From contig CAILCG010000024.1 in the NCBI GenBank assembly GCA_903832665.1, positions 186,001 through 250,000 on the forward strand: a stretch of DNA of 64,000 nucleotides. The letters run 5' to 3'. Shown piece after piece: positions 59,416-62,885 of the stretch (positions are counted from its first letter, which is position 1; the number at the start of each line of letters is the position of its first letter). Source of the DNA: an uncultured Methanomicrobiales archaeon. Lineage in GTDB: Archaea > Halobacteriota > Methanomicrobia > Methanomicrobiales > Methanospirillaceae. The position numbers and the translations under genes were made by a program. The notes under the pieces are model-generated. The model was given only the letters and a program-made list of their open reading frames with translations, had not been told where the DNA came from and did not search any database.

Positions 59416-59633
59416 AAACGACAGGAGGGTCCGGGACGTGCCCGGATCATGCCACTCATTTGTTGGCCGGAACTTTTCTGGTGCGGGCCTTAGCTGGTTG
59501 AGCAGGATCCGGAATCCAATTTTTGTGCATATTTTTTGAACATTTTTGCATCTTTTTGTTCAACAAATTTCGTTTCGCATCCCACATTTTCGTACCAGAC
59601 TCTGCTGAAAAATTTTCAATCGCGTACAGGGGG

Positions 59634-59691
59634 TGTCAGTTAGCGAACCGTGGCACGGATAATTATCCGCGGCGCGGATGTACAACTGACA
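59634..59691. repeat. 58-bp interrupted palindrome
   Basis: TGTCAGTT (59634-59641) and AACTGACA (59684-59691) are perfect inverted 8-mers, and exactly at their common centre lies the perfect 14-bp palindrome CGGATAATTATCCG (59656-59669). Further partial pairing (CCG 59648-59650 with CGG... 59675-59677) joins both. This is the layout of a miniature inverted-repeat element or of a protein-binding cruciform. Confidence 0.6.
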
Positions 59692-59910
59692 ACAAACTTT
59701 TTTCTCCCGGCGTGACGGTCCGGCAATAAAAATCAAAGTCTGATTAAAAAATTTCAGGCCGGGGCGAGGGGTCGATTGAAAAAAAAGTTTCAGAGATTGA
59801 TTTTATTGTTTTTCGTGCAAAACGCGGATCGGGTTTTGTACTGCAAAAGTACTGGAACTTAATCCAAATTTTTCACTCAAATCCTAAGAATTAACAAACC
59901 GATCAAGTAG

Positions 59911-60187
59911 GGGGAGGGTCCCCCATTGTGCACAAAGGTGACCCTCCCCACTTAGGGAAAGAGGGGACCCTACCCCCCCTTTTTCTGCATAACTGCAACC
60001 ACGGCTTCGCATGGAATCACGCCGGAGATCATTTTTTCGGGTGATCCGCGGGAGAGGGGAGGTGCCAGACCACCCCTTTGCCTGAAAAGAGTTTGAGGTG
60101 ACCCTCCCCTCTTGGGCTAAGGGGGACCCTTGGGTCTTAGGTAAAGAGGGGACCCTCTCTTCTTTAGTGATGGAGGACCCTACCCCG
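59911..60187 (+). repeat. Irregular repeats of GGGACCCT-type motifs
   Basis: GGTGACCCTCCCC occurs at 59937-59949 and 60097-60109 (13 of 13 identical), AAAGAGGGGACCCT at 59958-59971 and 60143-60156 (14 of 14). More copies of GGACCCT stand at about 60124 and 60175, and the inverted form AGGGTCCCC at about 59916. Spacing is irregular, so it is not a CRISPR array. Function unknown. Confidence 0.6.
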
Positions 60188-60249
60188 TTTAGAAAAATTG
60201 GGGGGAGTGGGCCGTGAAAGGTTGCGGGGCTATAATGATGAAATAGTAG

Positions 60250-60401
60250 CGAGGGTTCCCCGCCTCAGGGCCTATCAGAGGCACGGCGGGGCGGATGACT
60301 GTTTTGTTGTCAAGCGTTTATCCGCCGCGGGGGCGTCCCTTCGGGGGCGGCGGCGTTCATCGTAATGCTCGTGGTTGGGTTCGAATCCCAATAATCACAC
60401 C
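60250..60401 (+). ncRNA. Folded segment ending in a tRNA T-arm-like hairpin
   Basis: Successive stems: CCCCGCC 60258-60264 with GGCGGGG 60285-60291 enclosing GCCT/AGGC; GCGGAT with ATCCGC 60320-60325 enclosing TGAC/GTCA; CGTCCC-TTCG-GGGGCG (60334-60349, a UUCG tetraloop hairpin); then TTGGG-TTCGAAT-CCCAA (60375-60391), a textbook T-arm, followed by TAATCACA like an acceptor 3' strand. No matching 5' acceptor (GTGATTA) or D-arm is found upstream, so it is not a complete tRNA. It may be a tRNA 3' fragment left by integration of the neighbouring AT-rich DNA, or the end of a tRNA-like RNA. Strand follows the T-arm. Confidence 0.4.
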
Positions 60402-60529
60402 TTTGTCTTGGGTCTGCTCATCCGTAATAAAAGAGGTTGATCATCGATCTTATTCATAATCTAACTTCATTTAGCCGCGTTGTTTTCAAATGTTGAATAA
60501 TAAGATCGAAACGGTCATCTGCTTAAAAA

Positions 60530-62293
60530 ATGTATCAAACATTGAGTGAAAACAGATTGAATTTTGATTTTGATCCTTCAACAATCACTGATCTTGAAAA
60601 AGAAAAAATACTTCAGTCTTTTTTTAATTCGGATGTTCTTATTGACGTAAGTAATAAAGAGTATTTAAAAAGGATTTCGCAATTAATTGACTTTTCTCTG
60701 GATTTTAAAAGACTCGATGGACTTAATCTCGCAATTATAAATTTAGAACCCTTTTTAGAACGAGATTTAACTGATTTTGAAAGCGCAGAAGGTCACTATT
60801 TTTTAGCTAATGCTTATAGCAATCAAAGAATTTTAAAAATTGCTAAGGAAGATGTTATATCAAAATGGGAAAATCCAGAACTCGAGAAGGAAATTCTCCA
60901 TCTCCGCTTATCGCTGAAATATATTCAATCTGTACGGGAAAAATCCTCTTTTAAAAATAAAAGATCGAAAGAAGAAAAATTCTGGGAAGACACGAGATTT
61001 TCTCAAATTAATACTAATTTGGGAAAGTCGATGAATGATATCGGTAGATTTGCTGAGGGGGTTGAATATAGGAATACAGTATTATCAATTAATCCAAGAT
61101 TTGGGATGGCTTTAGGTTGTAAAGGCATCAGTTATCTGTGGTATGCACAGTTTTTACATGATCGCGGTCATCAATTTGTTTTTTACTATACCGCATATCG
61201 TTTATTAAAAATGTCGTTAAACATTGATTTGGAATACGTTGAGTCGGAAAATTTTCAAAAAGCAATCCCATATATTCAGTCCAAAGTAAAACAAGCATAC
61301 CTTGAAAAAGATCTGGATTTGAATTCATTTTCCCTAGGGGATTCCGAGGAAGAAATCCAATATAGAAAGTGGTGTTTACAAAATTGCTTGTTTTTGAATC
61401 CGCTTAATGACATTGGGCCGTACCCAATAGCAGCAAGAGATATCCTCCATATCCCATCTATAACAACAAACATCAACGAAGGACCGAATTGTCAAATATT
61501 GTATAACCTCCTTAAACAGGAATTTGTTACCGCTAGATATTCATATTATAAAGGAATTTCTGGAAAAGAAGCTCATTTTTCAGATAAAGAAGTATTCCTA
61601 TTTGATACTGAAGACAATCCTATTTATTCAAAAGCATCTGAAGAAATTAAAAATTCATTCCGGATCTGTTACTCAATTTTCGATAAGATTGCCTTTTTTT
61701 TAAATTACTATTTTAAATTAGGACTAATCGAGAATAGGGTGTATTTTAGAAAAATATGGTATATTGAACAAAAAAAGAATAAGCATAATCGAGAGGTTCA
61801 AGTGAAAAAACCCTTAATTTTGAATCCAAATATCATAAATAAAAATAATCTTCCACTATTGGGATTGTTTTGGATAAGTAAAGATCTCTTCGAGGATGAC
61901 ATTAGATATAAAGAGGCTTTAGAACCAGATGCAAAGGAGTGGCATATAATCCGAAATCATCTCGAACACAAATTTTTAAAATTAGGCTTACCAGAACAAG
62001 AATGTTCCTTGCCCTCTTATAATTTTTTAGGAGATGTGGATAAAAATCTCACACATTCGATTGAAATTCATGATTTTGAAAGAAAATCGCTCAAATTGCT
62101 TAAAACAGTTTGTGCCGCATTGATTTATTTAGTCCTATCAATGCAATATGAAGAAGCTGAACGTCAGAACCAAAAAAATAAGGCCGTAAAATTGGTACAA
62201 ATCTCCTTACAGAAATTCCCAGATGAGTCCAAAATTAATGATTATCGTGTTAAGGGGAATAAAAAAAATGTTGTTGGTAAGAAAAAGTTATAG
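60530..62293 (+). CDS. LA2681-type HEPN domain protein
   Basis: 587 residues, very AT-rich and unlike all other genes here, so probably acquired. The N-terminal two thirds form helical TPR-like repeats (AEGHYFLANAYSNQRILKI, SQINTNLGKSMNDIGRFAEG, GCKGISYLWYAQFLHDRGHQ). The C-terminal part (about 370-560) matches the LA2681-like HEPN family: FDKIAFFLNYYFKLGL, VYFRKIWY, LLGLFWISKDLFEDD and the R-N-H-x-x-x-x-K active-site pattern in IIRNHLEHKFLKLGL. HEPN domains of this kind are proposed metal-independent RNases in toxin, antiphage or abortive-infection systems. No antitoxin gene accompanies it. The substrate and trigger are unknown. ATG 60530 follows AAAAA. Confidence 0.8.
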   Translation: MYQTLSENRLNFDFDPSTITDLEKEKILQSFFNSDVLIDVSNKEYLKRISQLIDFSLDFKRLDGLNLAIINLEPFLERDLTDFESAEGHYFLANAYSNQRILKIAKEDVISKWENPELEKEILHLRLSLKYIQSVREKSSFKNKRSKEEKFWEDTRFSQINTNLGKSMNDIGRFAEGVEYRNTVLSINPRFGMALGCKGISYLWYAQFLHDRGHQFVFYYTAYRLLKMSLNIDLEYVESENFQKAIPYIQSKVKQAYLEKDLDLNSFSLGDSEEEIQYRKWCLQNCLFLNPLNDIGPYPIAARDILHIPSITTNINEGPNCQILYNLLKQEFVTARYSYYKGISGKEAHFSDKEVFLFDTEDNPIYSKASEEIKNSFRICYSIFDKIAFFLNYYFKLGLIENRVYFRKIWYIEQKKNKHNREVQVKKPLILNPNIINKNNLPLLGLFWISKDLFEDDIRYKEALEPDAKEWHIIRNHLEHKFLKLGLPEQECSLPSYNFLGDVDKNLTHSIEIHDFERKSLKLLKTVCAALIYLVLSMQYEEAERQNQKNKAVKLVQISLQKFPDESKINDYRVKGNKKNVVGKKKL

Positions 62294-62366
62294 TACACTT
62301 TATTGATGTAACTATCAATTTTTATCCTGAGTAATCCCACCAAACAGAAGCAAAGGATTACCCCCT

Positions 62367-62885
62367 TCACTTCCCTCCAATCCGCTCCTCCAGCTTCTTC
62401 CCATGCGACCCGTTCCAGTACAGTTTCCCGCAACTCTCACACCAGAAGAACGACAACCCCCGCCAGTCCTTCGGAGCATAATCAGCCCCGGAGATCTCGC
62501 ATTGGAACGCCTCCCGTACAACCGTGTTACAGAGCGAACACCGGCTCATCGTCACCCGCCGCTTAATCAGCCCGGTCTCAATAAGTTGCTGGACCTGCTC
62601 CATCACATCCTCGGACTGGATGAAAATCGCCCGGTCCTTCCCGCGTCTCGCAAGTTCGGCATCCCGCGTCAGCAGGAGGCGGTGCTCCTGGAGACCCAGC
62701 TCCAGCAGGAGCGTATCTTCCTTGGCATTCCCCTCCTCAAGGGTGTTCGCACTGGTGGTATCGTACCCCATGAACCGCAGGTACCGGGTGAGGGTTCCCA
62801 GCATCCGGTCCACGATGAACCGGGGTTCCGGGACGATATCGTGCCGGTACGCAGTCGGGGCCGGGGTGCCGGGTTCAGGAGACAT
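62367..62885 (-). CDS. Mut7-C RNase domain protein with zinc ribbon
   Basis: About 172 residues. The N-terminal part is a PIN-like Mut7-C (DUF82) domain: RFIVDRMLGTLTRYLRFMGY with its Asp, LLLTRDAELARRGKDRAIF and the acidic end SEDVMEQVQQL, expected to bind metal and cut RNA. The C-terminal part has four Cys in two pairs (MSRCSLCNTVV and FFWCESCGKLYW) forming a zinc ribbon. ATG 62885 overlaps the amrS stop by 11 bases, so they are coupled; a longer in-frame start at 62936 adds a low-quality tail. Confidence 0.88.
   Translation of the reverse strand: MSPEPGTPAPTAYRHDIVPEPRFIVDRMLGTLTRYLRFMGYDTTSANTLEEGNAKEDTLLLELGLQEHRLLLTRDAELARRGKDRAIFIQSEDVMEQVQQLIETGLIKRRVTMSRCSLCNTVVREAFQCEISGADYAPKDWRGLSFFWCESCGKLYWNGSHGKKLEERIGGK

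Follow-up and report, generated by a model that had tools for sequence, protein, structure and literature searches.

The window, by which we mean the whole 64,000-nucleotide stretch of an uncultured Methanomicrobiales archaeon that was analysed, carries towards its right end an AT-rich gene of the HEPN_LA2681 family preceded by several repeats. The features of this locus are, from left to right:

59596 to 59801, plus strand: repeat A, a second, unrelated dispersed family, found by DNA search of the archaeon's own genome.
60095 to 60164, no strand assigned: palindromic mini-array of the GACCCTCCCC type (25 nt x 2.7, 68% match), also seen in the C26 composite described below and at the G034 locus.
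60244 to 60366, plus strand: core of the dispersed repeat B, a pair of GC-rich hairpins with a T-rich linker between them, defined by own-genome DNA search and a covariance model.
60371 to 60401, plus strand: 3' hairpin module of repeat B, taken for a tRNA 3' end by the initial annotation and by ARAGORN.
60402 to 62360, no strand assigned: inserted segment (approximate extent), absent at the same site in genome G034.
60443 to 60517, plus strand: within the HEPN leader, an inverted repeat with imperfect arms (GATCTTATTCA .. TGAATAATAAGATC; fold z -1.46).
60530 to 62293, plus strand: HEPN_LA2681 gene, an open frame of 587 aa, identified by Pfam match, motif conservation and predicted structure.

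Pfam places residues 313-541 of the protein in HEPN_LA2681 (PF18733; 224.1 bits against a cut-off of 27, E 1.4e-66), and the R-N-H-L-E-H stretch at residues 475-480 forms an intact R-x4-6-H motif. In an alignment (A5) of the window protein with 55 homologues from named genomes and viral contigs, which leaves out 12 of 67 loci that were truncated, nearly identical to others or lacked a recognised frame, R475 is present in 56 of 56 sequences, N476 in 51, E479 in 53 and H480 in 55, and given this near-invariance R-x4-H is presumably the conserved catalytic motif of the family. Further invariant residues in the family alignment are R173, D304, R336, F384-D385-K386 and N440. Residue 528 is a cysteine in the window protein and an arginine in 55 of the 56 aligned sequences, and because Cys528 replaces a near-universal Arg the window protein could be weakened.

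The full-length AlphaFold model (mean pLDDT 87.1) contains an N-terminal TPR superhelix at about residues 62-273, which aligns with TPR domains at Z up to 16.6 (rmsd 3.0 over 142 residues), and the family profile also matches TPR structures. For the HEPN half, folded alone at pLDDT 86.6, Foldseek gave nothing significant (best E 1.8) and sequence search retrieved no solved structure, while a second aligner returned as its five best matches the HEPN toxins 5yep, 6m6w, 7bxo, 8xdj and 6m6u at Z 8.2-8.8 (rmsd 3.2-3.4 over 127-129 residues), values of Z 8-9 being modest for a helical domain; Csm6 (6tug, Z 7.0) and an integron-cassette HEPN protein (3jrt, Z 6.3) ranked lower. The initial annotation had named the product an LA2681-type TPR-HEPN protein from its R-N-H-L-E-H pattern and repeats, and family, motif and superhelix all bear this out. 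No PADLOC model and no NCBIfam entry matches the protein, and no biochemical test of the LA2681 family was found in the open-licence literature; a table of Anantharaman et al. 2013 (PMC3710099) describes LA2681 HEPN domains as active, fused to TPR, operonic with TPR and more frequent in bacteria than in archaea.

The gene differs sharply from its surroundings in composition, as had been claimed, with a GC of 0.315 and a GC3 of 0.27 against 0.533 +/- 0.034 (lowest 0.466) and 0.60 +/- 0.07 for the remaining long ORFs in the window that scored as coding (26 listed), which places its GC 6 sd under its neighbours. The flanking genes are ordinary, with an alpha/beta hydrolase on one side and a Mut7-C RNase and a radical-SAM protein on the other (Pfam). 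The annotated absence of an antitoxin gene was likewise upheld: no antitoxin-like gene adjoins the HEPN gene, nor does an MNT nucleotidyltransferase (GSX10DXD), the immediate neighbours being the hydrolase and Mut7-C. In the leader, the inverted repeat at 60443-60517 is equalled in folding by 14 of 200 shuffles, and it may be an operator.

The family is rare among relatives and scattered far beyond them. Of 60 relatives, 2 have it, both among the 36 that belong to the genus, and across the phylum 7 of 392 genomes carry it. A single peptide-pattern scan of one genome each for 84,980 species yielded at least 47 named loci, with hosts that include Desulfobacterales, Sphingomonadales, Burkholderiales, Lachnospiraceae, haloarchaea and a Methanoregulaceae MAG; in the last (L172) the HEPN protein shares 64.5% identity with its counterpart in G017, a genome of the window's genus. 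This match, together with a gene content typical of the group, suggests that the window comes from a Methanoregulaceae methanogen. Elsewhere there are 20 viral-contig loci, 14 plasmid records and 1 phage record. The low GC, the patchy distribution in the phylum, the scattered loci and the plasmid and viral-contig records together argue for lateral acquisition, and thus support the foreign origin inferred for the gene.

Genomic context was surveyed through 98 proteins near the 46 genome loci having a recognised HEPN frame. A type I specificity subunit lies within two genes at 5 of these 46 and an HsdM/HsdR-like gene within four genes at 5-6, so that only about 6 loci sit in defence-operon neighbourhoods and most do not; no neighbour cluster is common to more than 6 of the 46, the type I restriction-modification genes being the largest, and a conserved partner gene was therefore not found. 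A P2-type portal and terminase adjoin 3 of the 20 viral loci, and the portal of L126 (on the same contig as L181) was confirmed by Pfam; the P2 site between gpA and gpQ is described as a defence hotspot by Rousset et al. (PMC9122126). This pattern fits a mobile, solo, defence-type effector, from which we infer an antiviral role.

Two further loci deserve description in their own right. In G017 (L031 3016-3498) a 160-aa ORF on the same strand ends 15 nt ahead of the HEPN gene; it has no Pfam match, and by eye its 'GHG' and 'QFHCNS' stretches recall a caspase-like protease. The ORFs just upstream of the G017 and L172 HEPN genes are unrelated by tblastn and without Pfam match. In L122, from another genome of the phylum, the HEPN_LA2681 gene is interrupted by a stop, and its neighbours are an ORF that, again by eye, resembles an AbiEii-like nucleotidyltransferase (GGTALSKLYF..EDLDF) and a resolvase-like recombinase.

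The same observations bear on the possibility that the gene encodes a housekeeping or stress RNase, kept by the host for its own regulation and not for defence. That it is stand-alone, chromosomal and intact in frame would suit such a role, but a gene found in 2 of 36 genomes at genus level and 7 of 392 in the phylum, of a composition far from that of the host and with relatives on plasmids, on viral contigs and in type I restriction-modification operons, is unlikely to be a resident housekeeping or stress RNase.

Comparison with other genomes places the gene on DNA that is absent from an orthologous site. Homology with G007, G034 and G011 resumes on the right at about 62361-62372 (blastn to L092, L093 and L097), and alignment to L093 sets the left boundary between 60362 and 60402. 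In G034 (L093) the same hydrolase/Mut7-C intergenic stretch holds repeat B without the HEPN gene, and in G021 (L094) a repeat B copy also adjoins Mut7-C at the equivalent place. In the repeat B core the window and G034 copies are reciprocal nearest relatives (81%); by contrast, 28 of the 30 own-genome copies are closest to another copy from their own genome (30 own and 17 G034 copies compared, two duplicate sightings left out). The window copy is therefore orthologous to that of G034 and older than the HEPN insertion, since the G034 site has the reciprocally closest copy without HEPN. The site as such is variable, for G007 (L092) has behind Mut7-C a single gene in two degenerate, mutually similar stretches, which replace repeat and hydrolase.

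The position of the left boundary, exactly at the 3' side of repeat B, invites the idea of a mobile cassette, made up of the HEPN gene with its flanks, that used the repeat's 3' hairpin as attachment site, in the manner of an integron cassette or of integration at a tRNA, and HEPN integron cassettes do exist (PMC3710099). We nevertheless consider this very unlikely: the inserted segment holds no integrase or recombinase, and among 30 own copies of the repeat only the window copy has an AT-rich downstream flank (0.31 GC against 0.46-0.64). Nor was a direct repeat found at the ends, a comparison that is weak because the reference sites have diverged.

The segment upstream of the gene, which the initial annotation described as strongly folded, tRNA-like at its end and directly upstream, proved to be a copy of a genome-wide repeat. 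When positions 59420-60529 were searched against the own genome (2.88 Mb, 28 contigs), 47 matches were obtained, most of them in two dispersed families. A covariance model (R1) built from 17 own-genome copies finds repeat B 52 times in the genome of the window; in the genus 38 of 39 genomes have it, two of them in no fewer than 87 copies (87 candidates were scored per genome), and in the order 23 of 150, all within the window's own family (22 candidates per genome scored in this order-wide survey, with stricter filters). In own-genome copies the core lies inside a larger modular element that also comprises a 5' part and, on the other side, a 3' hairpin, the latter consisting of GGGGGTCTCAACCCCC followed by ATCATCATACC and missing in some copies; GGGGGTCTCAACCCCC is the 3' hairpin sequence of most other full copies.

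None of the three descriptions was confirmed. The segment 60230-60405 is GC-rich and not specially stable, with a fold z of -1.19 and 28 of 200 dinucleotide shuffles folding as well. Its tRNA-like end comes down to an ARAGORN call of tRNA-Pro at 60314-60401, and the T-arm-like 60377-60393 occupies the place of the repeat's 3' hairpin, which is what the tRNA-like end is. We rejected an attachment site formed by a tRNA or a piece of one, as Rfam tRNA (RF00005) has no match in 60200-60530 even at E <= 10 and the T-arm sequence pattern (up to 1 mismatch) occurs once in the full genome, with no second match. The core ends at 60366 and the 3' hairpin near 60401, 128-164 nt ahead of the HEPN ATG and not directly before it.

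The annotation had gone on to suggest an RNA antitoxin or a tRNA-like target of the nuclease as possible. In the antitoxin reading, RNA of the segment would bind the HEPN RNase and keep it inactive, after the manner of type III toxin-antitoxin systems or AbiF-RCd22. The precedent of AbiF of Clostridioides difficile, a HEPN protein held in check by an RNA, RCd22, that starts 168 nt upstream of abiF (PMC12373285), made an RNA partner a reasonable idea, as did the same-strand position of the segment 128-164 nt upstream, the conserved hairpins of its repeat family and the lack of an adjacent protein antitoxin. Against it stand the numbers, 52 copies of the repeat in the genome and its presence in 38 of 39 genus genomes as against 2 of 60 relatives with HEPN_LA2681, and the orthologous G034 copy that stands without a HEPN gene. 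A search for the pair in other genomes covered 73 further HEPN loci, none of which gave the segment a meaningful score (best E 0.05). Folding of the 150 nt ahead of each of 61 homologues gives a mean z of -0.22, against -0.61 for 57 control upstream regions, and at 20 of 66 homologues, by crude ORF picks, an ORF on the same strand stops no more than 60 nt before the gene. No short tandem-repeat array of the type III antitoxin kind lies within 365 nt of the HEPN ATG, the only nearby array (2.7 x 25 nt, 68%) being 365 nt away and part of another repeat. Copy number, distribution, the G034 site and the upstream regions of homologues thus lead us to reject the RNA antitoxin, which we consider very unlikely, and speak also against a tRNA-like target. 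An RNA partner across the HEPN_LA2681 family more generally is also unlikely, because upstream regions of homologues are not extra structured and 20 of 66 have the close upstream ORF. The HEPN gene and repeat B are neighbours by accident, not toxin and RNA antidote.

For the inserted gene we propose, with a probability of roughly 80%, that positions 60530-62293 hold a laterally acquired, single-gene LA2681 TPR-HEPN RNase effector, most likely of an abortive-infection-type defence, inserted beside an older and unrelated copy of repeat B. About 1.95 kb of AT-rich DNA would have entered between that copy and the Mut7-C gene. The N-terminal TPR array may hold or sense a ligand or partner, and the C-terminal HEPN domain, a predicted metal-independent endoribonuclease and probably dimeric, would cut host or viral RNA once triggered, most likely in the service of abortive-infection-type defence. 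RNase activity, dimerisation, trigger and defence role are all predictions.

Repeat B merits attention beyond its role as a false partner. Across genera, an alignment fitted to the model shows compensatory changes in 8 of 19 pairs with 96.7% of cells paired, a compensatory count greater than in all 500 shuffles, which do not keep relatedness; covariation within a single genome is slight, and the outer stem closing the repeat across genera is weak (best 6-pair stretch 69% paired). Sorted by flanking genes, from crude ORF picks whose two passes differ at some loci, 30 own copies comprise 14 in convergent, 12 in tandem and 1 in divergent intergenic regions, with 3 unclassed; gene pairs in the window, by that caller, are 8 convergent, 8 divergent and 39 tandem. 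Among the 12 tandem cases the repeat has the same orientation in 3 and the opposite in 9, and 0 of 30 copies overlap a scored ORF. When 30 of 38 G034 copies were taken for comparison, 7 of the 30 own copies (L032, L065, L068, L074, L078, L080 and L089) shared at least one flank with a G034 copy (tblastx, at least 70% aa identity).

A search for Y1/RAYT transposase (PF01797) was negative in 9 of 9 genus genomes and positive in 5 of 14 control genomes, which rejects a RAYT-mobilised REP as the identity of the repeat; spread by plasmids or viruses was likewise rejected, with no match to the repeat in plasmid or phage records and none to its exact core pattern in viral contigs. Rfam (4227 families) gave no family at E <= 0.05 for 16 sources, most of them with good B copies or its composite, and no description of such repeats in Methanoregula, Methanomicrobiales or archaea was found among titles and abstract starts of the open-licence literature, though one may exist elsewhere. 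With its 52 dispersed, intergenic copies it has the marks of a REP-like interspersed palindromic repeat, and it looks like a selfish or REP-like element that shuns promoters, an RNA role being also conceivable. More tentatively, and with more doubt than conviction, we raise the possibility of an undescribed archaeal class of mosaic element, structured and multi-hairpin, amplified separately per species to dozens of copies, settling downstream of genes, with hairpins kept by compensatory change, and spread by some enzyme other than the REP transposase of bacteria. Since compensatory change keeps the hairpins, the repeat may function as RNA or single-stranded DNA. Repeat A, the second family, has 17 own-genome copies, is shared by 14 of the 39 genus genomes and contains an internal inverted repeat, TGTCAGTT..AACTGACA; a composite at G000:C26:122652-123270 holds repeat A, GACCCTCCCC arrays and a partial repeat B in the order seen in the window.

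The gene adds to a family that is known but has been poorly studied, and repeat B is the less expected part of the locus. The analysis removes a tempting RNA-toxin pair, as copy number and an orthologous site expose a false partner beside the gene, and it adds an archaeal methanogen member to the little-studied TPR-HEPN proteins, for which R-x4-H and the invariant residues make a simple mutagenesis test possible. It also reveals, in the window's family, a large dispersed repeat family with no Rfam match or evident mobilising enzyme.

Among known systems, the closest is the HEPN_LA2681 family as described in PMC3710099, with which the window protein shares a C-terminal HEPN domain with intact R-x4-H fused to TPR; it differs in being solo, with no TPR gene in an operon, and in carrying Cys528 where the other aligned members have Arg. 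HepT of the HepT/MntA system (PMC7641770) is the best structural match of the HEPN half, and the R-x4-H-x-Y motif of that system is present in 30 of 56 LA2681 proteins, but the window gene has no adjoining MNT antitoxin gene and its protein has Phe where the AMP-accepting Tyr sits, as do 14 of the 56. AbiF-RCd22 and type III toxin-antitoxin systems (PMC12373285) resemble the locus in the HEPN-type protein with RNA close upstream that was first proposed here, whereas the upstream element of the window is a genome-wide repeat unlinked to the HEPN family. Repeat B itself resembles the REP, BIME, GTAG- and CGTC-tagged palindromic repeats (PMC3733652) in being dispersed, intergenic, palindromic, present in many copies and often placed between convergent genes, and differs from them in being archaeal, in residing in genomes without Y1/RAYT transposase (9 genomes), and in having a core of about 125 nt within elements that reach several hundred nt and are built from several hairpin modules.
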